Origin: Kappaphycus alvarezii
Taxonomy: Eukaryota; Rhodophyta; Florideophyceae; Gigartinales; Solieriaceae
DNA: 64,000 nucleotides
Direction: 5' to 3'
Assembly (NCBI GenBank): GCA_002205965.3
Contig: NADL03000147.1
Location: forward strand, 1 to 64,000
The number at the start of each line of letters is the position of its first letter. Position 1 is the first letter of the stretch. The notes under the pieces were generated by a model. The model was given only the letters and a program-made list of their open reading frames with translations. It searched no databases and had not been told where the DNA came from. Of this stretch, positions 16,330-46,760 are shown piece by piece. The translations under genes and the position numbers were made by a program.

Positions 16330-16965
16330 TACAGCAAGACCATATGATGCAACTAAACTAAAAAGAGTTCAGCAGGAGGTTTGGGCCAAAATAATCTGGC
16401 CGATCGAATACTGTATACTGTATCTTTTAATATTAAAAACACCCAAACCTTTCCCTTCTGGCAAGACGGCACGGAGGTAGGCTTCCCCAGCCCTGATACG
16501 CACAGCGGCGAAGAAATCAGGCACCGGATCCGTGTCCTCGCCTTCCGCCATAGTACTGCCACCGCATTCCTTTTCGCCCACCCCACCAATGCAACCAAGG
16601 TGTCGCCAGCCCACAGGACCTTGATGCTATCCTGTCATCTCGGACTACCTGTCTACACCGACTCACTCCTGCTAACCTTTCAGCACTGTGAGCGACATAT
16701 GGACTTGTTAGGCGATCACGCGACCGGCCTCTGCCCTGCCAAGTTCGGCCGCACGGCTCCGCAGCACGCTTGCTTTCCACGTCTTCCGCGCCGCCGAGCC
16801 CGACTGTCAATTCGAAGTGCCGTTCCTTGTCCCGGGCACCGAGCTTCGACCCGTGGACATCCTTGTACACCCCACTGCCGATCCGAGCAAAGAAGAGACA
16901 AGGCCCGTCGCGTGTGAAATCAGGGTTGTCTCCCCATTCAAAGCCGCCTTTCGCATCAAAGCAAC
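16330..16965 (+). pseudogene. 3'-terminal fragment of a LINE ORF2-type protein
   Basis: Protein-like plus-strand sequence resembling the C-terminal end of LINE-type reverse-transcriptase proteins. CHLGLPVYTDSLLLTF and CERHMDLLGDHAT match the zinc-binding ...LRLGLPV...C..C...D.FGDHA region. After a frame change near 16.78 kb, FEVPFLVPGTELRPVDILVH and VACEIRVVSPFKAAFR match the following LRPADI(L/F)V...(F/C)DVTVVSPL segment. No reverse-transcriptase palm is present, as in 5'-truncated LINE copies. It stops exactly where the Gypsy family 2 LTR begins (16966), so that LTR element probably inserted into it. At least one frameshift, so not functional. Confidence 0.6.
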
Positions 16966-17320
16966 TGATAGGGGTGAATCAGCGGGGGAAGAGATCCTCA
17001 GAACCAATTACCCCGAAAAGGAAGTGTTGCGAGCGACAAAATTGCTACCGTGGTATTGTTGAACGAACAAAAGGGAGTGTGTATAGAAGAGAGTTGAGGA
17101 AGCTACATGCAAGTATAAAAGGGGCAGGGTCTACCACCGACGCTCTGCGACCAGCGTAAAAAAAGTTTCTTGGTCTGAAGTTGACTCTCAACTTCCTACT
17201 ACTCGGAACTTGGCTTGAAGTTGTCTGCCAACTTGCTTGACCTCTCCATGAGGAAGCAGTTTACTCAGCTTATATAGACTTTTGGCTACCCCTAAAGTCC
17301 GAACAAAACTACAGAAGACA
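16966..17320 (-). repeat. LTR of Gypsy family 2, left end of the composite
   Basis: Starts TGATAGGGG on the plus strand. It carries ATTGTTGAACGAACAAAAGG, AAAAGGGGCAGGGTCTACCA and CTTATATAGACTTTTGGC, the same blocks as the LTR at 691-1430, then diverges from it. Confidence 0.75.
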
Positions 17321-17404
17321 CCAAGAAATGCATAAAAATACTTTGTGTGGACAATATACTCTAAGCAAAAGATACTTAAGAAACTAACAATTAATTTGGT
17401 CCTC

Positions 17405-17935
17405 TTATTTCCCAATCTCTAAATCAGATCCAAAAAACTCCTCTAAAATATCCATGCTGTCCAAGCAGTCCCCATAAATATCTGCGAATGGCTCACAGCT
17501 CTCTATTCTCCCCTGGGAGATATCTAGACTATTAAAGATATCTCCATCCAGTTTCATCGTGGGCACAACTTGATCCATACTCTCCGTTCCAGGCCCCACC
17601 AGTCCAACACTTTCCATGCCCCCTGTTCCCTCATCCTCCTCCTCCTCCTCTTCCTCTTCCTCCTCCTCCCGAGCCTCGTACACTAGCTCAGGGGCTAACC
17701 ATTCCTCGAAGGACTCCCCGCTCTCCTCCTCGACCTTCTCAGCCTCTCCCTCACTTACCTCCCTCGCTTCTTCTTCTATGAAGAGGCGGCGAACGAACTC
17801 GATGATTTGCTTCTTTGTTTGCCGCCGGATGTAGTCGTCGGCATCGGTTGGCCCGTAGGCGGCGAGACGAAGGCCATTGATGGGACGGGAAGGGCGGTTT
17901 TTGGAAATAGGGACAGAGGGGCGAAGGTTGTTCAT
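17405..17935 (-). CDS. Accessory ORF4 of Gypsy family 2: very acidic protein of unknown function
   Basis: An ATG-started frame of 176 codons, MNNLRPSVPISKNRPSRP, with a basic N-terminal 35 residues and a central helix-prone segment (TKKQIIEFVRRLFIEEEA). Then come FEEWLAPELVYE and a run of about a dozen glutamates encoded by a CTC/TTC-type microsatellite. The C-terminus is acidic and alternates D, I and S. It lies just before the LTR in the sense direction, after ORF3. A shorter ORF at 47725-48099 sits in the same position beside another LTR-like sequence and shares EE(W/Y)LA..LVY. I recognise no domain. It may be a retroelement accessory gene; the frame is open in this copy. Confidence 0.5.
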   Translation of the reverse strand: MNNLRPSVPISKNRPSRPINGLRLAAYGPTDADDYIRRQTKKQIIEFVRRLFIEEEAREVSEGEAEKVEEESGESFEEWLAPELVYEAREEEEEEEEEEEDEGTGGMESVGLVGPGTESMDQVVPTMKLDGDIFNSLDISQGRIESCEPFADIYGDCLDSMDILEEFFGSDLEIGK

Positions 17936-18060
17936 TGTGATAGACGTTGGGGAACGGGAGGCAATGTAGGGTGTTTTGGGTGTGTGGGGGGAGAGGGGTG
18001 ATGAGTAAAATGATCGGGGGCATTTGGAACTTAAAATAAAGGGGTTTAAATAGACTCCCG

Positions 18061-19554
18061 GGGCAGGTTATATAGATTAGGAATAGGTGAAATAAATCTG
18101 CAAGGGATTTTGCAGTAGTGCATTTGCGCTTTTCTTCTCAAAAAAGGTGAATTTGGAGGAGGAGGTAATCTAAAAGGGAAAAGGAACTTGATTCGGGGTC
18201 TATTGAGAGGGTTAAATACAGTATAAAAATATCTAGATAAAATGGAAGTAAATTTGGAAATGACGGTGGGAGAAGTTAGGGGCGGGATCATTGTAGGTTG
18301 CTGGATTACACGAAGGGAGGACTATTTCCTGTATTACATGAGGAGAGGACCCTTTTTTGTATTACACGCCCCCTTTCTCAAGGCGAACGTCCCGGGTCGT
18401 CACTGCTCTTCTTCCGCTTCCGTTAGTGTTCGCTGTCTTATTGATAAAATGTATGGTCTCTCAAACGGGTACGGATGCAACTGATTACCAATATGATGCT
18501 CTACAAAGTAGGTTCGCATTACTTGTACCTCACTTTGTAGCATAGCGTCATATATTGGTTTGATAATATCGAGGTGGGGTTGAATACATTCTTCTTCCGT
18601 GACTCTTCCGAATCTTCCAAGAGTTAAAAAATATATGTGATATGCAAACTCTTCTGGAAGATGCCGGAGGAATGGATGCCGATAAAAAAAGAAGACGCGC
18701 ATCATCAAGAACGAATCTTCGTAAGATAAGTGCGGTACATGTAGCGCCCTAAAACATAAACAGATGCTTATCATGAAATAAGAAATGACCTGCGCATCGT
18801 TCGCGTCCTCGGAGATATTGCGCAGCCAAAAAGATAATCTTCTTCTTCCGACTGTATGTTGTGAATGGTTGTGAAGGAGAGCTAGAGATGAAGTTGTGGT
18901 GGACGGTCCCGATGAATGGCCGCGACCAGCTCCTGACGTACTGGGACCTGCACGAGGTCCTCTCGGGGGACGACCGAAACCTCTTCTGGGCGGGTTGTTG
19001 TCTCCCGAAGGTCCTCCTCTGGTCATCATCACTGCTTCAGGAGGATCCTCGCCGCCTCGAACGTTCCCAATTTGTGGCGGAGAAACGTAAGGTTCCCATA
19101 GAGGATACGGGACCAGTCTATATTCCATATCCGGGGGCAAGGCGTAACCTCTCAGTCGCACATCTTGGTTGTTCTTGAGAAATACGTAAATTGGACGGAT
19201 AATATTCAGATACGTTTGCGACAAGTCTCCGGCAGCTACCATTCCATATCTTCCTATAGAGTAATGATATATTACCTCCACAAACTCTGGACCTGCTTCC
19301 GTGAACCTTCCGTTTTGGAATGAAAATAGAACTCTTATTAATAGTCGGAAATCTTCTTCAGGTAGCAATGGTCCGTTCAACGTACGAAAACATAGGCATA
19401 TAATGTAGAAATGGATGATTACGTGGAGTTTTTAGTAGTCCCCCGTAATCGAGATGATCCATTCCCAGGCCCTTTTTCCTCCCATAGGAATCATTCTATA
19501 GTTAAAGATGAGTATGCCCCGTGGTTGCGCATAGTCCTGTGTGAGAAGGAATTC
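18061..19554 (-). repeat. Left inverted arm of the composite Gypsy element
   Basis: Reverse-complement match to 24133-25622. Shared landmarks are ATCTAGATAAAATGGAAGTA, CTTGATTCGGGGTC, AGTAGTGCATTTGCGC and GATTAGGAATAGGT. It carries the ORF3 copy. The two arms have clearly diverged from each other. Confidence 0.85.
18400..19380 (-). CDS. Accessory ORF3 of Gypsy family 2: protein with a duplicated ~110-residue domain
   Basis: A 326-codon open stretch that does not start at an ATG here (its first codon is TTG); similar sequence continues upstream. It has two copies of one domain. The first holds EEDFRLLIRVLFSFQNGRF and IGRYGMVAAGDLSQTYLNII. The second holds YEDSFLMMRVFFFYRHPF and LGRFGRVTEEECIQPHLDII. 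Both run ICLCF - (E)D - RV(L/F)F - P(E/+)F - Y - GR(Y/F)G.V - Y..I+PIY - PYP...PY. A glycine/proline/arginine-rich linker joins them. The domain looks mostly helical. It matches no family I know (not an envelope protein: no signal or membrane anchor stands out). It is repeated inverted at 24.1-25.2 kb. Fossil copy. Confidence 0.55.
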   Translation of the reverse strand: MNGPLLPEEDFRLLIRVLFSFQNGRFTEAGPEFVEVIYHYSIGRYGMVAAGDLSQTYLNIIRPIYVFLKNNQDVRLRGYALPPDMEYRLVPYPLWEPYVSPPQIGNVRGGEDPPEAVMMTRGGPSGDNNPPRRGFGRPPRGPRAGPSTSGAGRGHSSGPSTTTSSLALLHNHSQHTVGRRRLSFWLRNISEDANDAQVISYFMISICLCFRALHVPHLSYEDSFLMMRVFFFYRHPFLRHLPEEFAYHIYFLTLGRFGRVTEEECIQPHLDIIKPIYDAMLQSEVQVMRTYFVEHHIGNQLHPYPFERPYILSIRQRTLTEAEEEQ

Positions 19555-20757
19555 TACGGGAATGGGCGTAACTTCGGTGAGGTATGTGAGTGGCTTGTGA
19601 AAGAATACGCTAAGGAGGTAGAACCAGATGAGATGATTCGTACCGCCATAGAGGCCCGTCTCAACTTCGACGATTTGGTAAGCTCATTGGTATACTTATG
19701 TGATCTCTATGAAAAGGCCGGGTTCAACGCCAAAGCCAAGTACGGAATGCTGCGTAAGGCGGCGATGGGAGATAAGCGGCTCTCCTATTTCCTCCTCATC
19801 AAGGACCCTCACACTTTTAATGAACTGAAAGGTATCATAGTAGAATTTGTCAAATATTCGGAGACGTTTCAGTCACTAAGTGAAGTACCGAGGGAAACTC
19901 GTACACCAATGTCTATTGTACATCCTGAAAAGAATTATCAAAGGCCGGCTACTAGTGCAGCAGCGTTGGAATCTGTCAGGAGCGATGTCAAAAACTTGGA
20001 AGGAAGGCTGGAAACCCGCGATAATCGAATTGACATGATAACCTCGCAGTTGGAAAGCCTTACTCTTACCATTAAGAAGAATCAGTCTGGGGTCCCTAAG
20101 GCCGCAGAAGTCTGCTCTTACTGTCACAAGACTGGACGCTTTGCGAATAGGTGTCCTGATAATCCACATAGAAACACTCGTTGTGGAAAGTGCGGACGAT
20201 ATGGGCATTATGAAAGTAACCGCTGCTCTAAAGATAACAGAAGAGCAAATTTATTGGACACGAGGAGCGAGTCAGGACCAGAGATGAAAATATTACAAAA
20301 CAGAAAGGATCAAAGGTTGACAGATGCCGGTAACGTATCCATCGCTGAAGAAATTAGTCAAGTCAATGTGACGAAAAGGGATGAGGAAGGGAACATTTTA
20401 TCGAAAAAAACTAGGCTAGATTATGGAATGCTGGAGCATATCCCAGAACTTGTACCTCCTCGGACAAAAAGGTCTGATAAAGTTGTTTCGGGAGTGGAAA
20501 TCGCTCCGGCCACGAAAACTAAAAGGAATAAGAAATTTACGAGTATCCGGAAGTACGTACTAGAGTATGTCAAGAAGTACAATTTGGTAGCTGAGCTTGC
20601 ATCAGTTCCAACTGGAATAAAGTTTGGTCAACTTTTGAGGGGCAACGCAAAGGATGCGAGAAAAGAACTTAAAAAATTATCAGGTCTAATAAGTCCGCTA
20701 AGGGTAAGAAACTGTTTCTTCAATCGGCCTCGACAGCACCAAGACGTCTTAAGCTAG
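19411..20757 (+). CDS. gag: gag frame of the composite Gypsy element, with two zinc knuckles
   Basis: A 448-codon frame. From about residue 50 it matches the gag at the window's left edge (NFGEVCEWLVKEYAKEVEPD and on), then has a coiled-coil-like stretch (LEGRLETRDNRIDMITSQLE). Two CCHC-type zinc knuckles follow: CSYCHKTGRFANRC and CGKCGRYGHYESNRC. Zinc knuckles bind the element RNA during packaging. The first ~45 codons are the opposite strand of the ORF3 arm rather than gag. VAELASVPTGIKFGQLLRG near the end also occurs in Gypsy family 1. Fossil within a rearranged element. Confidence 0.8.
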   Translation: MDDYVEFLVVPRNRDDPFPGPFSSHRNHSIVKDEYAPWLRIVLCEKEFYGNGRNFGEVCEWLVKEYAKEVEPDEMIRTAIEARLNFDDLVSSLVYLCDLYEKAGFNAKAKYGMLRKAAMGDKRLSYFLLIKDPHTFNELKGIIVEFVKYSETFQSLSEVPRETRTPMSIVHPEKNYQRPATSAAALESVRSDVKNLEGRLETRDNRIDMITSQLESLTLTIKKNQSGVPKAAEVCSYCHKTGRFANRCPDNPHRNTRCGKCGRYGHYESNRCSKDNRRANLLDTRSESGPEMKILQNRKDQRLTDAGNVSIAEEISQVNVTKRDEEGNILSKKTRLDYGMLEHIPELVPPRTKRSDKVVSGVEIAPATKTKRNKKFTSIRKYVLEYVKKYNLVAELASVPTGIKFGQLLRGNAKDARKELKKLSGLISPLRVRNCFFNRPRQHQDVLS

Positions 20758-24058: not shown

Positions 24059-25246
24059 TTGTTCAAGCTCAGGGAAGAGATCAAGGAGGGCCATCCATGC
24101 ACGTCGTCTGTCCCTTACCATCAGAGGCCTGAAGAATTCCTTCTCACACAGGACTATGCGCAACCACGGGGCATACTCATCTTTAACTATAGAATGATTC
24201 CTATGGGAGGAAAAAGGGCCTGGGAATGGATCATCTCGATTACGCGTGACTACTACGAACTCCACGTAATCATCCATTTCTACATTAATATATGCCTATG
24301 TTTTCGTACGTTGAACGGACCATTGCTACCTCAAGAAGATTTCCGACTATTAATCAGAGTTCTATTCTCATTCCAAAACGGAAGGTTCACGGAAGCAGGT
24401 CCAGAGTTTGTGGAAGTCATATATCATTACTCTATAGGAAGGTATGGAATGGTAGCTATCGGAGACTTGTCGCAAACATATCTGAACATTATCCGTCCAT
24501 TTACGTATTTCTCAAGAACAACCAAGATGTGCGAAGAGGTTACAGCTTGCCCCCTGATATGGAATATCGACTGGTCCCGTATCCTCTATGGGAACCTTAC
24601 GTTGCTCCGCTCAGAAACACAACCTCAGCGAAGACCAGATCCTCCCGAGCCGTGATGATGATACGAGCAGGACCATCAAGTGATCGGCGGATCATCGAAG
24701 AGGGCAAGGCGTCGGGAGCAGCGAGGAAGATCACCAAGAAGATCACCTCAAACACCGCCTAGTCTCCCAGGGGGAAACTATGCATACTTAATTATTGGAC
24801 GGCTAGCAATTAGACGTTGGCTTCGCGAAATGACAGAAGACCCTCGAGAAGCAGAAGTAATTTCCTTTTTTGCCATTATTATTTGCACGTGCTTCCAGAA
24901 CGTTCACGGAGCGCACCTTACTCGTGAGGACTCAGTTCTTATGTTGCGAGTTTTTTTCTCCTTCAGATACCCGTTTCTGGACCCGTTGCCAGAAAAGTTT
25001 GCATACTACGTTTACTACCTCACATTTGGAAGGTTTGGAGAAGTGAAACGGGAGGAGCTCATTAGAGAACACTATGAAACCATACGCCGAATCTACGAAA
25101 CTCTTGACCAAGGAGATGAGCCGGTCATCGCTTGGAACACACTCTCTCATCATATTAGAAATGAACTACTACCACATCCTTTGAGTGAACCCTATACTCT
25201 CCCTGATGAATGGATAGAACTCCCACAAGAACAAAAAGAGCCTTGA
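24059..25246 (+). pseudogene. Accessory ORF3 of Gypsy family 2, right copy
   Basis: Same duplicated-domain protein as at 18400-19380, read on the plus strand directly after pol and so in its natural place in the element. Domain 1 has YINICLCFRTLNGPLLPQED and RFTEAGPEFVEVIYHYSIGR. Domain 2 has IIICTCFQNVHGAHLTREDS and FGRFGEVKREELIREHYETI. The linker between them is short and rich in R, G and P. It is broken in this copy. Its place after integrase is where some Gypsy elements carry an extra gene. Confidence 0.55.
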
Positions 25247-25622
25247 GGACGAGACGGGACGTTCGACCTAAGTGCGGGGGGGTGTTAGGCGCGTGCAGAT
25301 TTTTTTTGTCGCCGTCATCTACAGGACCTTAGTTTACTGTACTACCTCTCCTTGTCCAAATTTGCTTGTAGTTCCGGTCCTTCCTCGTCCTCCCTGAGCC
25401 TTGCTTATCATTACCGCGGTCATCTCCAAGTTTACTTCCATTTTATCTAGATATTTTTAAACTGTATCTACCCCTCTGAATTGACCCCGAATCAAGTTCT
25501 TTTATCCTTTTTGCTTACCTCCTCCTCCAAATTCGCTTTTTTGAGAAAAAAACGCGCAAATGCACTACTACAAAATCCCTTACAGATTTATTTTACCTAT
25601 TCCTAATCTAAAGACCCTGCCC
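24133..25622 (+). repeat. Right inverted arm of the composite Gypsy element
   Basis: Inverted partner of 18061-19554. The inner end is AGAATTCCTTCTCACACAGG and the outer end is CCTAATCTAAAGACCCTGCC. No ORF4 lies between ORF3 and the LTR on this side, unlike on the left. Confidence 0.85.
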
Positions 25623-25778
25623 CTTCCATACTTGCTTGTAGCCCTCTCAACTCTCTTCCATAAACATTCCTTTTTGTTCGTTCAACAATACCGCAGTAGC
25701 ACTTTTGTCGCTTGCAACACCTCCTTCTCGGGGTAGCTGGTTCTGAGTATCTCTTCTCCCAACAATTTACCCCTATCA
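25622..25778 (+). repeat. Partial LTR of Gypsy family 2, right end of the composite
   Basis: Reverse complement of the first ~150 bases of the LTR at 691. It contains TTTTTGTTCGTTCAACAATA and CACTTTTGTCGCTTGCAACA and ends CCCCTATCA at 25778. Confidence 0.75.
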
Positions 25779-33469: not shown

Positions 33470-36400
33470 ATATATTGCGGTTAAAATGTTTGCTGGGTTT
33501 CAACAGCGAAAATATCTATAACAGTACTTCACATTGTCGACATTTGATGCAATGTGTATTCACTGGTAGAAAATGTCGTTTTTCCTAAGTATACTCGACA
33601 GCCGATGCCGGAAGTTATATTGAATACGTACTGTGGAATCACATTGTGGCTTTCTATGAAGTATGTATTTACTGGGGGAATAGTAGTACACAAAAAAACA
33701 TTCCGCGAAAACACGTCGTGACTGTTTGCAATTCACCCAACAGACAAACAAGTAATCTGTAAGCCGCAACGTGAATTAGCATATTCCAATGTGACACTAT
33801 TTTATTCGACAATTGTCAAAAAGTTCACATTGTAGACTCCACAAAAAGAATTGTGTGATCCATAATTTCTCAATAAACTTTTTATTTATATAAGTCAGAA
33901 CCCTAACCAAATTGTTAAACCTTTGAAAAGGAAAATTTTAGATGTTTATTAAACAATAAAAACGACTGTTTGCATTTTCCTTTTCAAGTAGTGCAAAGAT
34001 GATAGAATAAACCCCTCTAATTTCGGACTAGATATAGCTGTTCACATTAAAAATTATCAGAACCCAGCTAGCATTAGTTTAAATTTACATAAAATCTTCG
34101 GAGTTACATAAAATAAAGGTCAAAAGATCAAGTCAGCTGGAAGTTGAGGATAACTAATTATTTTCGTAACCATTTCTTGACAATAACTGCGCAGTCAATT
34201 CGTACATGAAATACCATTCGACGGCCAAATAATGAAAAAATCTGGTTACCTATTATCAAATTTTATGAATTCAAGATCTGATATGATCATTTTGGAAAAC
34301 TCAAGGAGGAAATATGCATTATCAAATATCTCTATTGTATATAAAACTTTAAAATACCTTTTGAGGAGGCCGAGGATGCCAATTTTAAGTGATTATCCTA
34401 TAATGAAACACTTAATTTACACTTTATCCATACTAAATAATTCTTCCATTTCGAAGAATACAAATTCAGAGGGTTGATCAATTCATTAATCTTCTGATTT
34501 AATGTATTAAATTTTAATAAATATTTCTACGACAGACACTTAGATCTCTTGTAGGCCTGTATAAATACCACTGCAGCATATGATATCTGCAAGAATTCCT
34601 ATCGGGGGATGATTGTTAAGGATTCGGCATTTTGAACTATAAGCTGGCATTTATACGTGGAACTTCAATTTTCACATTTTTATTCCAAAAAAAAATAATG
34701 CATCTAGATAGATAATAATTTTTAAAAAGAAATAAATTGGTATATAGAGCAATGAAGATGAGGACAGCGTCAAACAAGGAACACACTGGGGGCTTTTGAA
34801 CTACTGATATATAATTAGATTATTTAAAGTGATCCCAAGTCCTCTATTTTCTTAAAGAGAGATTTCGTAACTTATTGGAATTTAAGCGACCAAAGATAAT
34901 ATTAGACCACAAATGAACTGTTCTCAGACATTTAAGTTTCAAGTAACATTCTTTACTATAAAGGATAATTCCATTCTCTTTACTTTCAATCTTATTCATC
35001 TCATAATGATGTGATCTCTGGGTAGATGAAATTTAATTATTACTTAAAGGATGTCTGATAAGAATAGAGCATGGAAATTGACGTAAAGTCGACCTTTTTG
35101 CGAACAAAATGTTTTTTGTGAAGTAAGGAGAAAGTCCCAAATATTTGTGAAGATTAAGAATTCGACGCATCTTTTTTGCATTATTTTTTTGTATCATGCG
35201 CGGGTATTCATCGGCTTCCAAGGGGATGTTTCCCCGGAAAAGTTAAGGGATTTCATGGATTATTGTGGGCGCACAGTAAGCGAAACCGATTAGCAGGCTT
35301 CTCTTTGACCGTTTACTTTACCCGTTTCTCTGAATATCGAGGGAATTACTTTCTGAATAAAGCAAGGAGGATACGGGGTTGCATATACTGCTTTTGGAGT
35401 TGTGCTGTTGTAACGAAAGCTACATTGTATGCAAAAACAAGGCAATGCTCAAGGAGATATTTTTTATTCCTACTATTGAGACAAGACGTCGTGTTTTCAT
35501 CTGACAGTCTCTAAATTCTAGTTGTGGCGTCCTATTATCACTTCACCGTCTGTGACGTGCGTCAGGAATAAAACGCGGCAACTATAGTTTTAAAAGCTCC
35601 CATCAGTTCCCTCCCATCCATAGAACAGCACATTATGGACCATGTACGGTCCCTCAAGCCTTTTCTACACGTGGGGGATTGATGTGGAGATTGGAGACTA
35701 AAGTGAAGGTGTGACCGTAATATCAGACTCCTCCATTCGGAATGAGGAGGGGTTTGAGAATAATTGGCATTAATTGGAAGATATAGACACGATTGAGGAG
35801 TCTATCGATGATTGTGAGCAGGTAGAGGGTATTTGCAGTAATTGCATTGGAGGTGTGGACATTTTGCAGGAATATTCTGTTTATGACTTCTAGGATAGAG
35901 ATTTCCAAGAATAGATCTAGATTTTTATCCTAAGAGTATATGCTATTCGTCCTTCTCGTCAAACGGATTCCCTTAAATGAACTTCATAGTATTTAGTATG
36001 TTTTTTTGAGACTTTAGGGTTTGCCGAAAATTCTATATAAGTTAAGGAAAGTGCTTTCTGTAGGAGAATTCAAGCAAGTAAGTAGACAGCCTCAAATGCA
36101 AACCCAAACAGTTAAAAAGCTGAAAGTAAACTTATGACCTATAAATTGTTATATTAATGCCAGTCACTGAGCATAGGTTGTCGACCCTGCTCCTTCTAGA
36201 CTCTTTTCTGGCCCCTCGACCTCTGTTGTTATCCACTTCTTCGTTTTCCCAGAGATGTAATACTGTAGCACTCTTGTCCTTTAGAATACTTCCATGTTGG
36301 GATAGTTCGTTCCGAGAACCTCATCCTCGCCAATTTATTCCTGTCGGAGTTCTTGCTTACTTACCAGGGAAAGGCATGCACGTTTTTTTTTACGGGAACT

Positions 36401-36520
36401 CTCGGAGACTTACATCGGGCCGCTTTCGCAGTTGACAAAAAACCTTTGAAACCTGTCACTAGTCGCTCGATGGAAAGAGATTCGAAGATTCAAGTTATTC
36501 TTTTGCAGCGACACTCCCTA
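33470..36520. other. AT-rich gene desert
   Basis: Strongly AT-rich between about 33.8 and 35.1 kb, with no supported gene. A short coding-like relic may lie at 35.18-35.5 kb on the plus strand (FIGFQGDVSPEKLRDFMDYC in one frame, with stops), without a family. The last ~200 bases before the LTR at 36.52 kb look ordinary. Confidence 0.45.
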
Positions 36521-36523
36521 ATA

Positions 36524-38410
36524 TGTGTGGATCATCGGAAGAAGAGATACTCAGAACCAAATACTCAAAGAAGGATGTGTTACAAGCGACAAAAGTCCTA
36601 CCGTGGTATGGTTGAGCGAACAAGAAGGGGTGAATAAGGGCGATGGTTGAGGGGTATACAAACAAGTATAGAAGGGATGTGGTCTGCCACTGATGCTCTG
36701 TGACCAAATAAAAAAATGGTCCTTGGGTCTGAAGTTGGCTTTCAACTTCATACTACTCGGGACTTGACTTTAAGTTGTCTGTCAACTTGCTTTATATCCA
36801 CATGAGAGAGCAGTCTACTCGGCTTATATAGACTTTTGGCTACCCCTAGAGTCTCAAAAAAACATACCAATAACCATATAATACATTCAAGGGAATCGTG
36901 TATACCAGAGAGACTATTAGAAGATATTTCTTCAGGGTAAATATCTAGGTGCCATACCCATACCCGCCACCCATCGACCAGGGGTGGGAATTGATGTGGC
37001 CATTGTATAAAACTTTTAGAGCAACTCTTAGCATAACCCAGAACATGGACGTGCACTGACTTCTATTAATGACAGCGTGTCTTAAAATAAAAAATCAATC
37101 CATGAATTTGCCACACTCATCCAAATTAACATATCTTGCAAATTCAGATACTGTAAATTTCTCTTGCAAATTTCGATACTGTCGAAAGCTATCATAACTT
37201 AATATGATATACTGTATTTGAACATGCTGATCTTAAGACATATTCAGATTAGCTCATCGAGCCACAGTAAATTGCAGAACTTTACTCACCGCTGGCGACC
37301 GGACATCGTCTCTCCTGGGAGGCACGATTTTCAGAAGAAGACTACGTTGAAGTTCAGCCCGTAGTGTTTTCCATCGTATTCAGTGTAGTATCACTAGTGT
37401 GGCCACCCTTTATTTTAGTTATTTTCGTGGAGGTTGGTCTGGGCTTATTTTTTCGATGTTTCAGGCCTTTTTGCATGGTTAACCACAGAGCAACACTTGG
37501 ACCCTCACTTCGCACGTACCGGCAATGACAATAGACAACATGTAACCCTGCCAACTAAGTTTACATCCTTGCCCACTTTTACAGTACATTAATACTGTCA
37601 GCTGCACTAGCAACTAACACTATTTACTGCAAACTATGGATGCAGTCGATGTTTATCTCGACTCGGCCGACCAATTCCTAGCTAACACCTGTGCTCGACC
37701 AAAAAGAAAGCTCACCGACATCATCTCGCGCATCATACCGCGCCGTGTGTGCGGAGATTAACTGCTAACCTCCAAATATAACCATGTTTGGCCCTTTTGC
37801 TGCATCTTGGTCAAACTGCCCAAGTTCAGAGTAGAGTAAACTAGTGTAGTACTAATATTTGGCCAAGTTACTCACTTCGGAACGCCTTTGGAAAGGAGAG
37901 TTGTTCCCGGAGCTTGATTCTTTGGTAGTAAACTCCAGCTTTGTAGCTTCATCTAAGGCCGCTAGCCTCCACCGCTATCTCTCCATAGTTGCATCCTCTC
38001 CCCTTCCTATTCTATAGACCAAGTAACTTACACCTACTCTGGCCCCTTTAGTCTTCTCTCTGCTGTGTTTCATTTCGGGCCAAGCATCACCGTTTAACCA
38101 TCCTAGATTTACTTTGAGGTGCGTGCGCTCCTCGCATGTAAAGTAGTCCTGGGTCAAACCCACACTACTACATTCAGCGTTGGCCCTTCTTTATTAAAAT
38201 CAACCATCCTACTCTATCCTATCTGGTTATATCGAACTACACCTTTCTTAATACCCAAGCTTTAATACCCAAGCTTTATTGTACAAGCAACGAAGAAAGA
38301 ATCAGCAGAGCGGGTCTCACGACAGATACTGTATCCGAAATTGGTCCTCCTCTAGATTTTTCGTGTGCATATTTAGAGCACGTCACTCCCCATTAGCGGT
38401 GACCTACAGT
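36524..38410 (-). repeat. Solo LTR of Gypsy family 2, split by a nested insertion
   Basis: Same blocks and order as the LTR at 691-1430: CGAACAAGAAGGGGTG, TCAACTTCATACTACTCGGG, CTCGGCTTATATAGAC and CCAGGGGTGGGAATTGATGT, up to about 37.18 kb. The match resumes at 38.33 kb with TTGGTCCTCCTCTAGATTTT. No gag or pol of this family lies beside it, so it is a solo LTR, more diverged than the other copies. Confidence 0.7.
37180..38324. mobile_element. 1145-bp TG...CA insertion inside the solo LTR, possibly itself a solo LTR
   Basis: The host LTR is interrupted between GATAC (37175-37179) and a second GATAC (38325-38329), a 5-bp target duplication. The insert starts TGTCG and ends CGACA, which are reverse complements and give the TG...CA ends normal for LTRs. 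It has no transposase or retroviral gene; the longest frame is 66 codons. A solo LTR of a third family is the simplest reading. A small non-autonomous DNA transposon is possible, because the duplication could also be read as 8 bases (GATACTGT). Confidence 0.6.
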
Positions 38411-38419
38411 GCGGCTTGG

Positions 38420-39890
38420 TTGCTCACTGACTTCCCCTTTATATACTGGTGGAGTCAAATGGCATCAGCGAGTTCTGCAAAATTTCAAGTGTATAAATGT
38501 TGACTCAGTATCAGCCTTCTCATCTGCCACAGAAAATGGACCCTCCGTATTTTGTATCCCAAAATCGCAGAAATTCAAGCCCCCAAAACCCGACTGACCA
38601 TTAAACATCCCCCGTGTTCGGATGCAATGCCACGTACTCCGAATTCAACACTACAAATGCGAGGCTTCATCAACATTTCGCCGTTCTCGGCCCCCGCCCC
38701 ATGCAACATGTCGTCGAGTGCGCGCGCAGCCACTTCCATGTATCTAGTTTACTTCCCCCGCAGATCGAAATGCCGCGATCACTGCGTTCTCTCCGCAACA
38801 ATCTCTTCGATATCCTTGCCTACAGCACTACTGCCTCTCGCCCTCGGAACACATTGAACGGAGCGGGAATGACGCGCAAAGATGGCGTTGTTTTCGAAAT
38901 GCACTGTAAAGTGGTGCAGCATGGTTTTCGTCATGGTCTCCAGTCCACGGTGTAGCTTATCGCCGTCGCATCCTTCGACGAGGGTCCTCAATTGCAGGCG
39001 ATTGAGCCTGTTCCTTAAAGCTGCAGAGGTACAGTTCTGCAGGGTATCTCCGGTGGACTTTTTCTGGCTCTTTTCTCTTTTGTCACACTTTTGCTCCCCA
39101 TTCCTTTCAGTAAACAAGAATGAAAGGCCTTCTACAAACCCTTAGTATTTACCGGAACCCTCTCGCACGTCACAAATCGGTGATAAGCAGCCTCCTATCT
39201 TATTAAACCCGTAATCCATCTATTGGCAGGCGTCAGATGGGAGCGCGTGCGAGGCTATTGCGAGCAGGGGATAGTCAAAGACTTTCCTGTACAGGATCTA
39301 CAATACACTTAACCTCGCTGTTAATGCAGTGGATGTATACGCAATAGTTGTGGGATGACAGGCTTTTTCTCTAGAACAACCCATACTTCCCCATTATCAT
39401 TTGCCATTAGGAAAATTGAGTAAATCACCCCCGTGTTTCCACTCGTCGAGTTTCAACCCCTGGCCCTTGATTCCTTTGGGCTCCCCAACGCGCACCACAA
39501 TTCCATTCCTTCAGGAATACATCCCGCGTATAGGGGAGTAGTTCAAAACAACAGCACAGTTCCAGGAGTAATCCGCAGGCGTCTTTATCAGCGCGTGGGT
39601 TGAGCACTGTGGTCATCTATTGGAACGGCGAATTTTTCTGAGTCCCACCGCATGTGACCAAGGTGGAACGTCTGGATTTTAGCCATACTTGGAACATGCT
39701 GTAAACTTTTATCAAAGTGTTACGTCACTGGGATGCCCCAAACACTGCATATTTGATTTTTTTTTGAAATTTACCTTTCAAAAAAATGCATGTGTGAATA
39801 TGATTATCCTTGTGTAAAACTACAAACTTTTTTGCATTGAAGGTTTCATCATGGAGCAGAAATGAAAATGCTTGTTTTGTTTACTCTGCC
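38420..39890. other. No supported gene
   Basis: A plus-strand frame at 38614-38955 (113 codons) is protein-like in places (LPPQIEMPRSLRSLRNNLFD) but starts with GTG, shows no family and is followed by stops. 39.1-39.9 kb has nothing recognisable. Confidence 0.4.
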
Positions 39891-39898
39891 GTTTTCTC

Positions 39899-40980
39899 TC
39901 CGTTTTCCGGCCAATCAGAACTTGCCTCTCCTTCCCCCGGATTCCGGCAGCCCTCGCGTCATCTTATAGGGGCGGCCGGTCCGGGGTTTCTACTCATGAA
40001 CGTGCAAGTACAGTGTACACTACTACTGTGCACTGTACGAGCCCACTTCCCGCTGGTACTACTGTACAGTGTACAGTAGTACTGTGTACTGTACGAGCAC
40101 ACCGGGCCAATCAACTAACGACTCTGACTGTCGCGCGACACCAAAAATCGTGCGACACGGCCCCCCACTGATCGTGGGCCACGGGCGCCACAAGATAATA
40201 ACGGACTTCCAGCTCAGCTTCCCTCTCACCTAGGCGCCCCCCTCAACACCACCCTCATGCCCGACTCGCACACCACGACCTCCATCCCACCGATCTCAGC
40301 CCCTACTCAGCTTGTCACCCTAACCAACCTTTCAACTTCCGTCGGGCGACCGACTGAGGTGCCGACAAACGGCCAGTATACGCCTGACGTGCAACCAATC
40401 TCCGGGCGAACGACCGAAGTGCTGACAAACAGCCGGTATACGACCGAAGTGCTGACAAACAGCCGGTATACGCCCAGAGAATGGTTGCATGTCAGGCGTA
40501 TACTGACCGTTTGTCGGCACCTCAGTCGGTCGCCCGACGGAAGTTGAAAGGTTGGTTAGGGTGACAAGCTGAGTAGGGGCTGAGATCGGTGGGATGGAGG
40601 TCGTGGTGTGCGAGTCGGGCATGAGGGTGGTGTTGAGGGGGGCGCCTAGGTGAGAGGGAAGCTGAGCTGGAAGTCCGTTATTATCTTGTGGCGCCCGTGG
40701 CCCACGATCAGTGGGGGGCCGTGTCGCACGATTTTTGGTGTCGCGCGACAGTCAGAGTCGTTAGTTGATTGGCCCGGTGTGCTCGTACAGTACACAGTAC
40801 TACTGTACACTGTACAGTAGTACCAGCGGGAAGTGGGCTCGTACAGTGCACAGTAGTAGTGTACACTGTACTTGCACGTTCATGGGTAGAAACCCCGGAC
40901 CGGCCGCCCCTATAAGATGACGCGAGGGCTGCCGGAATCCGGGGGAAGGAGAGGCAAGTTCTGCTTGGCCGCAAAACGGA
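39899..40980. repeat. 1082-bp near-perfect palindrome: two 510-bp inverted arms and a 62-bp centre
   Basis: The left arm is 39899-40408 and the right arm 40471-40980. They are reverse complements of equal length (510 bases each), and I saw only a handful of mismatches along them. The outer ends are TCCGTTTTCCGGCC and GGCCGCAAAACGGA. The centre holds two identical 30-base direct repeats (40411-40440 and 40441-40470) whose sequence resembles 40347-40380 in the arm. Each arm carries several TACTGTACAGTG-type palindromes and a TCGCGCGACA motif. No target duplication is seen and no transposase is encoded. Candidates are a foldback-type DNA element with long terminal inverted repeats, or a locally inverted duplication. 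Confidence 0.9.
40411..40470 (+). repeat. Two identical 30-bp direct repeats at the palindrome centre
   Basis: The unit starts CGACCGAAGTGCTGACAAAC and is repeated without a spacer. In the plus-strand frame it encodes TEVLTNSRYT twice, after a diverged TEVPTNGQYT from the arm. Confidence 0.95.
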
Positions 40981-40989
40981 CAAGAATCA

Positions 40990-41604: not shown

Positions 41605-44600
41605 TCAAGGATAAAACCGCTGCTCTCCATCCATGGGTACATCTTGGGCTTCCCGTTTCAACGTAGATGTACCTAGCGGTGACTTGAAATGGTGAATGAC
41701 AGCTGAAGCACACTGCGGAATTTCATCAACTCTTATCCTCTTAGTCGGCACTTGGGTTTCGCCTTCTGACGTTCCATCGGCTTGGCAATCAATTGCCTCT
41801 AATTTTCTCTTTCCGTTCCCTTCCGTGCAGATACGTTCGTAAGGACAAGGAAGGTGGTTGTTAGGAGTCGGCATGTCTGATTCCGGGCGGTCTATACCTT
41901 TTGCGTTCTCAGAAACAAAGGTGACCACGACTGGTTCAGGTTCCACACTCATAGCACTGCACAGATTGGCAGTGTTGCAATCTCCAAATGGAGAGCACTC
42001 CCTGGGAAGCTGGTTTGAACCGGCCTTCTTGTCCTCGTCTTTGGGATAGAGGTTGCGATTCGTCGTCGAACCTTCTCCAACATTTGTTGCAACATTCGCC
42101 ATTTTTCTATCTTCCAAGAGGTCTCTTGAATTCACCATGGCTTGACTGGCACCCACCATTTCCTTGACACGTTCTGGATCTGTACTCGGTACAGCAAACT
42201 TGTCATTCACCTCTATTGCAGAGCTACCCCCGTGCTTACCATCATATGGACTCTCCTCCATTGCCTTCGAGTCTGGACGAGTACGCCCCTCTACTTTCAC
42301 TGGGGGCGGACCTGATTTCTGTGAGATGAACTCTCCACTTGCCTTGACATCCAAGACTGAGTCTCCGTCTTTGGCTTCTATGTTTCTGTTACAGCGCAGG
42401 TTGATATCACTTTTCATTCTTCCCAAATAACTTTCAGCTTCCTGAGGCATTATCCCTCCGGTAATGGTGTTACTCGGACGATGACCATGTGGCAAAGCAA
42501 CGGTTCCGCGGTTCAATTCTACCTTGCTGCACTCACCTAAACGCATGTCTCTGGGAGGAAATTCGTCGAAGCGGCATTCCTGAGAACAGCCAGAAGCGAT
42601 TTCACTTAATCTTCTCGTCAGTTTCTCGGCTGGCTTATCGTACGGCTGAAGTAGGTCGGCATCAAGTACTCCCTGCGTCACCGCTTCAAGAGGTGGGGCA
42701 GTGCGCTCATCGGGCACACGAACCCTGTTTTCAAACGTGAGTTTTGTGTATCCCCCGTAATCCCTGCTCGTGCCATTCTTCAAAGAGACATCTCCGCCTG
42801 CAGGGCAGCTCTGAGCAAGCCTTGAATTCTGAGGAGCAATTGCTTGGGGGTTTCGGAGAGCACTCATGTCATATCTTACTGTAAGAGGCGCAATCTCTTC
42901 AGATCGAATCATTGACAGAGTGGATCGATGCGCATTCTGCAGATGGTCAGGATCCTGATCACGTCTGGCACGAGACGCTCCCGAGTTTTTCGTTCGGGAA
43001 TTATCTTCAAACCCCCTCTCCAGCATACTATCCGCTTGCGAAAGAATGACGCTCTCGATTTCATGGCAGGTCACTGCTTTTGCTGCTTCTTTGTCCTCCG
43101 CGCAAGCAGTATTCGGAGTCGTCTCCTCATCAGTCATAGTGTTTGTTTCATTCTCTCTCTCACACATGGAATCAATGCTATCATCATCCACCACAATAAT
43201 CTCCGGCAGATCATCGGAGCGATTCTCGCTCAGCTTCGCTGCATATTCATTTCTTCTCATTATTTCACGCTGATCATTTGCTTTCCTATATTCTCTGTCG
43301 TCCTCATCACTTTCAAAATTCTCGTCTGCGATCATCGCAAGAGGGGTAGGTGGGTCCTCTGCCTCCGCAGACCCCTCCGACCATTCTTCTTCTCCAAGTT
43401 CAATGTTATCTGGAACGTAGTCATCATCAAGGGGCTTCATTTTCTGGTTTTTCATTTGTTTTCGCCTTTGCCTACGAAAGCGAGAAAATGTTCGCCGTTC
43501 TGACTGCGGTGTACTAGGCTCAGCCTCACTGTGGTTGTGCTGACTATCAGTGTCTGCAACTTCGACCAATGGTTGAGGAGCAATTGGAGAAGATCTCATA
43601 GAATCATGTCTACCTACGATTCGCTGTCGTGGAGATTCCCTAGCAGTTGCTCGCGGTGAGCGTTCAGTCGGTCTTCCCGCTACTTGTTCGGACGCACAAC
43701 CAGAAGGCACGGGACTGAAGGCTCGCATGATCTCATGGGGCGCATGATTTGAAACGAGTTCAAGAATCTTCTTGCGTGAGGTGATAAGCGGCACTCGAAA
43801 ATTAACTGTCTCTGGCCTGGCCTGGTTTGGGCGTTGAACTTCGTTTTCCCGAGAAGTAATCATCCGGTCTGGGGCTAAACCAGCTTGTTTCGTATTTCCA
43901 ATTAGCATCGGTGTGTGATCGGGTTCCACAGATTGGCCCCGATCTTGATGCCCAAGATTGTTCTTCAACTGCGGCGTAGTTCCACGACGTTTCTCAAAAC
44001 CTTGACAGATGGTCGCAGTGCTTTTGTTGAGCCCATTTTCGTCTATAAGCATATCCTTTTGTATCCTCTCATCTAGTCTCAACCCTTCATGTCCGTAACC
44101 TCTTTCCTGTTTCGTTGTTCTACAACTCGCATTGAATCGAGCAGTTCTCCGCGCCTCTGGGTGATAGCCAGTGTGCAACGCTGCTGCATTGAAATCCTTC
44201 GGACGTTCTCCCGAAAGCACTCCGACCGCAGGTTGACAAGTCGCTACCGATGATCTATAGCTTTCAGTTGGGTTCGACACCGTCAGCTGGGACGCCATGT
44301 TTCGACGAGGAGATTGGGATTGAAATTCCTCACTTGCCTCTCTTTCCAACGAGAGACCACGTGTCTGGGGAGCGTTGTTGTCCATTTGCTGTAGCTCTCT
44401 TTGACCTCCGTTGGGTTGGGCCAGCAGAGTACCAAAGCCTCTGGTCCGCTTTTGGTTTATCAAATACTCTCCCGTTGGACAGAGCGAATCTGCATTCTGA
44501 TGAGTGTCAAGTGCTGATTTCAATACCATTGCTTGCACCTCATGCTTGTGCACTGGGCGCACTACCGCATTTGAGCAGTAATCCCCGTTTTGTCCAATGT

Positions 44601-45636
44601 TCCCATTTCCCGCGCAGGATCGGAGTTGGTTCTCTGCACGAAATGCCGCCACTGACGATTCAGCATTTGCTGCGGCGGACAGAGGTGGTTTCGCCAATTC
44701 TTTCTCCACGGACCTTCCCTGCATCGCATGCCGCTGCATGTCATCGCACTTCTCCTTGAATTTTCCAATTTCAAATCTTGCGGGCACCATGTGCACCATG
44801 CCCTGTACCCCCGGTAAATTAAGTGGCTGGGAAACATGCGGGGACCGTGTCCCGCTGCCTTCCACCCGACCGTTCCCTGGTTGGCACAGGGCCAGAGACC
44901 CGTTGACAACATTCGAACTACCAATAAGAGGACTCGCAGCTGGCCCATACCGAGGCACTATATGCTGCGGGACATCCTCTGGACCGGGTCTGGACGGCGC
45001 GGCTTCCCCACGCCCCAGATGGATCAAACCGGTAGGACAGGCCATCACTGGCGTTTGCACCATTGGTGGGCCTTGCGATGGGGTGGCGACGGGTTGGGAT
45101 GGGGTCAACTGAGCGTAGTTTTGCTGCATCTGCACAAGCTGGGTGCGCGCTTGCGGCTGGAATGACGGATTCACACCAGCGGTATTGTGCACTGTGGGAC
45201 TGGGATTCAATTGTCCTTCCATTGCAACATGTTGAGAAAGCACAGGTCGCAGTTGGTTGTGGATAATAATGTGTCTGAGTTGGGAACGGTGTTTAGGGAT
45301 TACAATGGGCCTTGTCAAGTCACGGGGTACACGAGATTGCGTAAGACTATGTTGTGGTGAGTATTGGTATTGGGTTTGGATCCGTGAATGGAAGCCGATG
45401 ACGGAAACGGGGATCATATGAGGGTGGCGTGTGGCAGAAATTTGACCAGAATGAGAGTGTTGGTACAGGGTAAGACGCATCTTTGTATGCTGGTTACCAC
45501 ATTTGGAACAAAGAGTGCTGAAACCATCAGGACCCGTACGCCAACGGGACGACGATGTAGTAAGACAAGAAAAGCAGTGACGAGTTGAATTGTCCGAAGA
45601 GGTGACGGGGAAAGGTTGGCCAGAAGAGGATAGCAT
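41605..45636 (-). CDS. Large GATA-type zinc finger protein, probable nuclear DNA-binding regulator
   Basis: A 1343-codon frame without introns, the longest in the window. The start chosen is the ATG at 45636, the first after an in-frame TGA about 19 codons upstream. Near the N-terminus is a GATA finger: C21-F-S-C24, then SRWRTGPDGFSTLC and SKCGNQ with C43 and C46. Its 18-residue loop and WR.GP.G..LC..CG are the hallmarks of plant/fungal type IVb GATA fingers, which bind (A/T)GATA(A/G) DNA. After it come a Q/P-rich stretch, a basic cluster (RFRRQRRKQMKNQK, about residues 717-733), an acidic region (about 733-790), a SUMO-interaction-like motif (EIIVVDDD, about 812-819) and C-terminal basic groups (GKRKLE, TKRIRVDE) like nuclear import signals. 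Most of the protein is low-complexity and probably disordered. It looks intact. A second functional domain was not seen. Confidence 0.85.
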   Translation of the reverse strand: MLSSSGQPFPVTSSDNSTRHCFSCLTTSSSRWRTGPDGFSTLCSKCGNQHTKMRLTLYQHSHSGQISATRHPHMIPVSVIGFHSRIQTQYQYSPQHSLTQSRVPRDLTRPIVIPKHRSQLRHIIIHNQLRPVLSQHVAMEGQLNPSPTVHNTAGVNPSFQPQARTQLVQMQQNYAQLTPSQPVATPSQGPPMVQTPVMACPTGLIHLGRGEAAPSRPGPEDVPQHIVPRYGPAASPLIGSSNVVNGSLALCQPGNGRVEGSGTRSPHVSQPLNLPGVQGMVHMVPARFEIGKFKEKCDDMQRHAMQGRSVEKELAKPPLSAAANAESSVAAFRAENQLRSCAGNGNIGQNGDYCSNAVVRPVHKHEVQAMVLKSALDTHQNADSLCPTGEYLINQKRTRGFGTLLAQPNGGQRELQQMDNNAPQTRGLSLEREASEEFQSQSPRRNMASQLTVSNPTESYRSSVATCQPAVGVLSGERPKDFNAAALHTGYHPEARRTARFNASCRTTKQERGYGHEGLRLDERIQKDMLIDENGLNKSTATICQGFEKRRGTTPQLKNNLGHQDRGQSVEPDHTPMLIGNTKQAGLAPDRMITSRENEVQRPNQARPETVNFRVPLITSRKKILELVSNHAPHEIMRAFSPVPSGCASEQVAGRPTERSPRATARESPRQRIVGRHDSMRSSPIAPQPLVEVADTDSQHNHSEAEPSTPQSERRTFSRFRRQRRKQMKNQKMKPLDDDYVPDNIELGEEEWSEGSAEAEDPPTPLAMIADENFESDEDDREYRKANDQREIMRRNEYAAKLSENRSDDLPEIIVVDDDSIDSMCERENETNTMTDEETTPNTACAEDKEAAKAVTCHEIESVILSQADSMLERGFEDNSRTKNSGASRARRDQDPDHLQNAHRSTLSMIRSEEIAPLTVRYDMSALRNPQAIAPQNSRLAQSCPAGGDVSLKNGTSRDYGGYTKLTFENRVRVPDERTAPPLEAVTQGVLDADLLQPYDKPAEKLTRRLSEIASGCSQECRFDEFPPRDMRLGECSKVELNRGTVALPHGHRPSNTITGGIMPQEAESYLGRMKSDINLRCNRNIEAKDGDSVLDVKASGEFISQKSGPPPVKVEGRTRPDSKAMEESPYDGKHGGSSAIEVNDKFAVPSTDPERVKEMVGASQAMVNSRDLLEDRKMANVATNVGEGSTTNRNLYPKDEDKKAGSNQLPRECSPFGDCNTANLCSAMSVEPEPVVVTFVSENAKGIDRPESDMPTPNNHLPCPYERICTEGNGKRKLEAIDCQADGTSEGETQVPTKRIRVDEIPQCASAVIHHFKSPLGTSTLKREAQDVPMDGEQRFYP

Positions 45637-45639
45637 TGC

Positions 45640-46760
45640 GATGAAGAGGGGTAAGTATCGTCGCGGAGAAGGGATACTCGGCAAAGGCGATCAGTGGATT
45701 GCCAAATGATCTGTTACTTTTTGTAAACGTCAGAACGGATTGGGTCTGATCGGTTGGGGATACGAGGGGCTGGGTGTTTTTGGAACTGGACATAGGGGAC
45801 GGCGGTTGCGGTTGGGCAGTGTGGCCGAGTACTTTTTGGCAAAGGTTTTCGAGTAGAAAGACGAGTAGAAAGAGGATTGTAGATCTCTGACCGGGGATGG
45901 TTCTCGACTCGAAAATTGTAGGGTACTGTACACTTATTCTTGAAATGCAAGTTATGCGGGATTCGCGCCTAATTTTTTCAAATTGATGCAAATGATTTGC
46001 TTGGGATACCCCCCGATACTGTTTTGTATTCGGTGTACTCCGACAGGTAGTACAGTACTGTAACTGTACAGTACTGTGCGTTATTATCCAGAAAAAAACA
46101 AAACTTCAAATTTTTTGTAGCGAAGTACTGTACATTTACTGTACTGTACCAAATATCTCGGTACATTTTCCCTCTTCTGTACGAAAGGTACTGTACGGAA
46201 CTTGCCACGTACGGCGCAAATTCTTGGGTAATTTATTATTTGGAAAGAAATGTCATTTCTTGAAGCCACGTATGATACGCACAGCGCAGCTCCGCGGTAC
46301 TGTACTTTACAGTACTCTGCAGTACTCTAATGGCTACTTTTTTGTACTGTACTCTACTGTACAGTGCTGTACACTGAAGTCTAGTTCAATCTATGTCTGT
46401 ACTGTCCGGTACCTGGGCTGGTGCGCCTATTCGGCTACCAGTACGAAAGATCTAACCTGATGTTCCACGCCGGCTGTACTGCACAATACCGTACTGTACA
46501 GTACAGTAAGGTAATTTGTACGCACACGACAGTGTACTGTACAGAAATCGCCGTCGCCGTCGCCAGTATCATATGCACACAAGCGTCAAGTATTTTATGT
46601 TTCGGTTTCCCGCGAAAGATACGGATCCGAACGTACAGTACTGTAATACAGTAAGTAGAAATTGTACTTTATAAAACTGTACTGCACTGTAATACCGTTC
46701 GAGCTGTACATACATAGTGCAGTGCTGTAATGTCAGAGTTCAATAGGTACATGTTACATA
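45640..46760. promoter_or_regulatory. Upstream region of the GATA gene, dense in TACTGTAC-type palindromes
   Basis: From about 46.04 to 46.75 kb there are well over ten copies or variants of GTACTGTAC / CAGTACTG / TACTGTACAGTA, for example around 46050-46080, 46126-46150, 46297-46375, 46478-46510 and 46634-46700. They lie 350-1100 bases upstream of the minus-strand gene start. Whether they regulate it or are a genome-wide repeat is open. No TATA box near the start is clear. Confidence 0.5.

Follow-up and report, generated by a model that had tools for sequence, protein, structure and literature searches.

A palindrome of Ty3-like retrotransposon ends in Kappaphycus alvarezii, probably an integrated snap-back reverse transcript

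The locus and its palindrome

The window, the whole 64-kb stretch of DNA analyzed here, holds a palindrome whose arms (39899-40408 and 40471-40980) pair without a gap over 510 nt, with 503/510 positions matching. They enclose a 62-nt center of two identical 30-bp units, which tandem-repeat analysis calls at 40410-40472 as 2.1 copies with 100% matches. The GC content of the arms is 58%, against 45% and 47% in the flanks, and both outer ends pass into differing, single-copy-looking DNA. The arms contain shorter palindromes: GTACAGTGTAC, with at most one mismatch, has 12 matches in the window, 12/12 of them inside the palindrome, against 0.77 expected, and each arm carries two quasi-palindromic 39-mers, spaced 56 bp, that fold better than 200/200 shuffles (z -4.0). 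Transcribed as RNA, the whole structure is predicted to form a single hairpin of -1159 kcal/mol.

The original prediction for this locus had described near-identical 510-nt arms, a 62-base center of two 30-base repeats and a ‘palindrome of palindromes’, all of which hold, and among the readings it offered that of an inverted duplication is correct. Its claim that the arms are equal applies to the 510 nt that pair; further out it fails, the left arm alone being homologous to other genomic copies for another 36 bp past 39899, up to 39863.

An open frame of 1359 aa runs without interruption along the minus strand at 41605-45684. Pfam recognizes a GATA zinc finger in it (E 1.4e-6), and a protein search scored 7992 candidates without finding a relative. 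Upstream of this gene, 45925-46682 contains 18 copies of ACTGTAC/GTACAGT, a motif that also fills the LTR family to which the palindrome belongs; the palindrome has 12 and the rest of the window 17. This shared motif and a frame that crosses the palindrome's center raised the possibility of a promoter or gene fragment, which was rejected: codon usage gives no coding signal, none of five candidates in a protein search reaches E<=10, and no Pfam family scores above its cut-off on the arm frames. A viral, phage or prokaryote origin was also discarded, with no match in phages, viral contigs or genome contigs.

Other inverted repeats are present in the window. The arms 18060-19555 and 24133-25623, ~90% identical, surround a Ty3-like gag-pol region and contain outward open frames with a repeated domain. 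A dispersed repeat of ~0.65 kb occurs at 687-1352, 16962-17497, 25612-25778, 36518-37182 and 35813-36345, and two of its diverged copies form a facing pair at 35.8-37.2 kb. The decayed inverted pair at 35917-36948 was examined as possible kin of the palindrome and dismissed as two diverged copies of another, unrelated repeat.

The source family of the arms

Searching the window's own assembly (336,021,096 bases in 884 contigs) with a single arm gave 374 candidate places. Scores were obtained for 40 of these, ~38 of which lie outside the window. Leaving aside the window arms, identity at the scored places is 78-92% over the matched stretches, which are mostly near full length. Such a search for further copies had been part of the original prediction; single-arm copies are indeed numerous, and they are the 3' ends of retrotransposons.

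Nineteen arm loci were fetched (L027 repeats part of L013), together with the neighboring sequence of 8/19. In 8/8 of these a second LTR lies in direct orientation, for a total length of 5.8-7.2 kb, and the two LTRs of a pair are 82-99% identical. After the 5' LTR, six of the eight have the primer-binding site TGGTACCGCATCC and two an altered one; the 5-bp target duplication is perfect in six and matches at 4/5 positions in two. Directly inside the LTR edge, family copies have a polypurine tract (PPT), a name we give it from position and composition. Pfam, applied to one copy (L018), found RVT_1 and RT_RNaseH, then Integrase_H2C2 and rve, in open reading frames that run antisense to the arm and end just before it, so the arm is to be read in minus-strand sense. 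The order RT, RNase H, then integrase is the mark of Ty3 rather than Ty1. Judged by this sequence homology, each arm derives from a multi-copy Ty3-like LTR retrotransposon and comprises its 3' end: LTR, PPT and 3' internal region (Table 1).

Table 1. Features of the palindrome, in window coordinates
Feature	Position	Strand	Basis or remark
Candidate 5-bp target duplication, left: AGAAA	39858..39862	.	Family has 5-bp duplications; suggestive only
LTR copy 1, a 3' LTR coding leftwards, complete to terminus TGAAAATGC (+ strand)	39863..40157	-	Aligned genomic copies, LTR pairs
Polypurine tract, copy 1 (complement CGGCCCCCCACT)	40158..40169	-	Inside LTR edge in family
3' internal region, copy 1, with degenerate 30-bp units	40170..40399	-	Homologous and colinear in 19 sampled copies
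Putative snap-back landing site CTCCGGGCG, half of 9-nt inverted repeat	40400..40408	+	Pairs 8/9 with 40471-40479
62-nt loop, identical 30-bp units 40410-40439 and 40440-40469	40409..40470	+	Repeat analysis, copy comparison
Putative snap-back primer CGCCCAGAG, element forward sequence, outside the inverted copy	40471..40479	+	Copy comparison
Inverted second strand, copy of 40399 back to 39899, 6 mismatches/501	40480..40980	+	Arm alignment
Polypurine tract of inverted copy, AGTGGGGGGCCG	40710..40721	+	Family comparison
LTR of inverted copy, without its last ~36 bp	40722..40980	+	Family comparison
Candidate target duplication, right: AGAAT, preceded by CA	40983..40987	.	4/5 match to AGAAA

Long inverted arms, a short center and internal repeats are also what a foldback-type DNA transposon or a MITE with long terminal inverted repeats would present, and a new foldback-type element was among the readings first proposed. 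The arm ends, however, lie inside an LTR, the family's copies elsewhere are LTR retrotransposons, and among these relatives of the arms we found no transposase or related autonomous element of the foldback class. Within ~25-30 bp of the arm ends there is neither an exact duplication of at least 7 bp nor one of 8-10 bp with one mismatch, whereas the foldback element Tetris is described with 8-10 bp (PMC4079207). The sequences TCCGTTTT/AAAACGGA, once proposed as element ends, turn out to be internal LTR sequence, and the target-duplication search around them came back empty. A foldback element is scarcely credible here.

The right arm ends at 40980, ~36 nt short of the LTR terminus, with unrelated sequence beyond; as the left arm alone reaches that terminus, the two are unequal in origin. 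Genomic alignments of the left arm start at 39862-39872, and the terminus was compared over 20 rows. This extension emerged from comparison with other copies and not from flank pairing; extending the arms outward by decayed flank homology was tried and rejected as weak, since 2.7% of random pairs score as high. The AGAAA directly before the terminus and the AGAAT that lies 2 nt past the right arm make a duplication that is only suggestive, because 2.8% of window positions match AGAAA at 4/5 or better and other offsets could be picked.

In a tree of the two arms (palL and palR) and 17 copies, from which L022 and L025 (interrupted or rearranged) and the repeat L027 were left out, the arms are sisters with support 100/100, on a stem of 0.052 changes per site with tips of 0.010 and 0.011. 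Their neighbors are L009 (support 86/72) and L028 (98/95), and in pairwise comparison the sampled copies reach at most 93% identity to either arm. Two independent tail-to-tail insertions of the family, or ectopic recombination between two copies, would find ample material in the genome, where a 14-base LTR-end pattern has 197 matches against 11 for its control. Set against this, the arms agree at 503/510 positions while other sampled copies reach up to ~93%, and the primer sequence at the junction (see below) would be left unexplained, so we consider such an origin very unlikely.

The mismatches between the arms fall at their two ends (the outer 96 positions and the inner 37), and a gap of 379 separates the two groups (clustering P=0.0013 for 6 in 501, P=0.0005 for 7 in 510). 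The six that lie outside the primer are departures from the family majority, three in the left arm and three in the right, and two of the minority letters are each found in one other copy. If the arms were simply young, spread mismatches would be expected; the clustering fits conversion across the middle or uneven copying, and we infer that the middle of the arms owes its likeness to gene conversion. The original suggestion, that the arms formed recently or are maintained by conversion, is thus plausible.

The junction at the center and at two other loci

In other copies of the family the unit ends GGTATACGCCC(A/G)GAG and continues GTCCCAATCC. At the window junction, GGTATACGCCCAGAG is followed by AATGGTTGCA, the reverse complement of the left arm. 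The nine bases 40471-40479 belong to the forward sequence of the element itself (at this place L009 and L022 have CGCCCAGAG or TGCCCAGAG), and the inverted copy starts after them. The copied segment is therefore the 501 nt listed in Table 1, and the mismatch 40403/40476 is primer sequence and not a mutation. In 10/19 sampled copies the same letters form a perfect 9/9 stem that closes a 32-nt loop of one unit, and L023 has 8/9; the automated counts of 11 at 9/9 and 13 at >=8/9 also take in a stem in L015 that is unrelated and one in L017 that is shifted. In the other 6 sampled copies, among them the nearest relatives L009 and L028, the best stem found is 7/9. The loop in the window is 62 nt and not 32 nt because the 30-bp unit is doubled. 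Stems of at least 8/9 within 100 nt are available at 125/8686 window positions (1.4%). The center carries a fold-back primer of element sequence, such as a snap-back cDNA should have, and we read the junction as that primer with its 62-nt loop.

A pattern of the junction, with 2 mismatches allowed, has 9 matches in 336 Mb, at three loci, and the reversed pattern, used as control, has none. One match is in the window, seven lie in tandem units on contig C476 and one is on C809. The absence of any other genome copy, combined with random breakpoints, had been named in advance as an argument for an artefact or a one-off duplication; what was found is the same junction at two other loci. An artefact of assembly or of a fold-back read is highly improbable: the junction recurs in diverged copies at these two loci, each arm has its own departures from the family majority, and the outer ends enter different single-copy-looking DNA.

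The element at C476:970602-977521 is a full-length copy with the perfect target duplication CGGCT/CGGCT. Its 3' end reads LTR, PPT, 3' region, an array of ~135-bp units with the junction, inverted 3' region, PPT and LTR. In this array (L037 747-1682; G000:C476) the palindrome center has grown to about seven 135-bp tandem units of 99% identity. Beyond the inverted LTR come 18 nt with 17/18 positions identical to the element's primer-binding site; the next bases match at 3/12, and past this copy the normal internal region resumes. In reverse transcription, plus-strand synthesis copies 18 nt of the primer tRNA. A 3' LTR between PPT and primer-binding site implies a tRNA-primed cDNA or a one-LTR circle rather than a chromosomal copy of this kind, and its presence in an integrated full-length element points to reverse transcription. 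The outer 3' LTR is 95.7% identical to the inverted LTR, and the two are 93.2% and 94.1% identical to the 5' LTR (219-232 columns), and by these values the inverted LTR does not predate the insertion. A 14-bp insertion and a 48-bp deletion are common to LTR1 and the inverted LTR and absent from the 5' LTR; gene conversion between the arms or unequal LTRs at integration could explain them. For C476, an origin by snap-back reverse transcription is strongly supported.

At C809 the junction is present and the right arm is complete to the LTR end, with a left arm that extends only ~35 nt past the loop. In matching stretches, C476 is ~80-83% and C809 74% identical to the window arm, compared with 503/510 between the window arms themselves; the three palindromes are therefore probably separate events, and a common palindromic ancestor with later conversion is conceivable.

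Origin of the window palindrome

We propose that the window palindrome probably arose when the cDNA of a Ty3-like LTR retrotransposon snapped back on itself in reverse transcription and the product integrated. A minus-strand cDNA (U5-R-U3-PPT-3' internal, in left-arm orientation) would have been extended as far as CGCCCAGAG, where its 3' end would have folded back and paired with CTCCGGGCG ~60 nt upstream. The paired end would then have primed the strand's own copying through PPT and LTR toward its 5' end, stopping ~36 nt before it, and the hairpin product would presumably have been inserted in the genome to become a palindrome. A copy made from such a template should be confined to the cDNA or its tRNA-templated end, and the window copy does end in the LTR, the C476 copy in primer-binding-site bases; the window lacks the latter since its right arm stops earlier. 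That the second strand ends just inside the minus-strand 5' end would be forced by a cDNA template and not by a chromosomal one. From the family, the junction and this end position, we infer that the window copy was made in reverse transcription rather than from chromosomal DNA.

The same stem and loop chemistry could operate in a chromosomal foldback, in which a break in a resident truncated copy is followed by resection, pairing of the 3' overhang at the 9-nt repeat, copy-back and joining. Accounts of foldback inversions at DNA breaks describe a comparable use of short inverted homology with the loop kept as a spacer (PMC7467729, PMC3907307), with a median loop of 36 nt in yeast with MRE11 and SAE2 intact (PMC7467729) and inverted microhomology of 2-8 bp in human inversions (PMC3907307), and the long common stem and short tips in the tree would also agree with it. 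Yet copying stops just inside the LTR terminus without entering the left flank, and the remainder of the element does not follow; unlike in break foldbacks, the template ends at the LTR terminus and, at C476, continues into the primer-binding site. As C476's own 3' LTR adjoins flank and not a primer-binding site, it cannot have templated the copy there. A chromosomal foldback further predicts evenly spread mismatches, which are not observed, and we judge it rather unlikely without being negligible.

Several observations fit less well with a snap-back transcript. The common stem of the arms, 0.052 changes per site, is long beside the ~0.02 difference between them, and no relative over ~93% was found among the scored copies. 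A recent cDNA needs a recent source, so either conversion hides the age or the copy was resident before the fold-back; in the first case the locus may match the 0.05 stem in age, and the missing source copy is no longer a problem. The target duplication matches at 4/5 positions and stands 2 nt off the arm end, L009 and L028 reach only a 7/9 stem, and the C476 indels common to LTR1 and the inverted LTR are absent from the other LTR.

The source family has the LTR, PPT, primer-binding site, RT-RNase H-integrase order and 5-bp target duplication of Ty3-type LTR retrotransposons, whereas the window copy is the 3' end only, twice, in mirror image and without the coding region. Self-primed retroviral and retrotransposon transcripts have the same mechanism, the cDNA 3' end folding back and copying itself. 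To our knowledge, these snap-back products are mainly found in vitro or unintegrated, whereas here they would be fixed in the genome at three loci with one common fold-back site. Our literature search on LTR palindromes, self-priming and inverted LTRs, over titles and abstracts in a library with few subscription papers, returned no integrated tail-to-tail snap-back LTR palindrome, a negative too narrow to establish novelty. Asymmetric-LTR and inverted HIV-1 proviruses are likewise integrated products of faulty reverse transcription, with unequal LTRs in 26/88 proviruses, and the available portion of that report describes no palindromic LTR pairs (PMC9278108).

LTR hairpins are suspected triggers in a genome's first recognition and silencing of an active retrotransposon; a study that sought them turned up no more than one antisense nested insertion (PMC11624286). 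Mu killer and such LTR hairpins resemble our case as inverted duplicates of a transposon end with potential hairpin RNA (PMC11624286). A single reverse-transcription error could produce a near-perfect 0.5-kb LTR hairpin in one step, and the site has served at least three times in this genome. That the element has a built-in fold-back site in the 9-nt repeat next to its PPT, repeatedly making integrable LTR hairpins whose dsRNA loci silence their own family, is a further conjecture that we hold to be distinctly improbable. The mechanism can be tested by sequence in other genomes, where one would look for inverted LTR pairs with a forward-primer center and ends at the LTR or 18 nt past it, bearing in mind that an LTR palindrome can pass for a foldback transposon.

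Our check for inverted pairs covered, of the 197 LTR-end matches, those listed on contigs C1 to C608. At L038 242-3801 (G000:C1:1360441-1364000), LTR ends of a diverged subfamily stand in inverted orientation (95 bp at 96.8%), flanked by CTCTT/CTGTT and separated by ~2.5 kb that match no other fetched locus, possibly another product with two U5 ends. At L039 (G000:C761:170681-171310), a complete LTR terminus is joined to the inside of a second, inverted LTR, which looks like autointegration or rearrangement.
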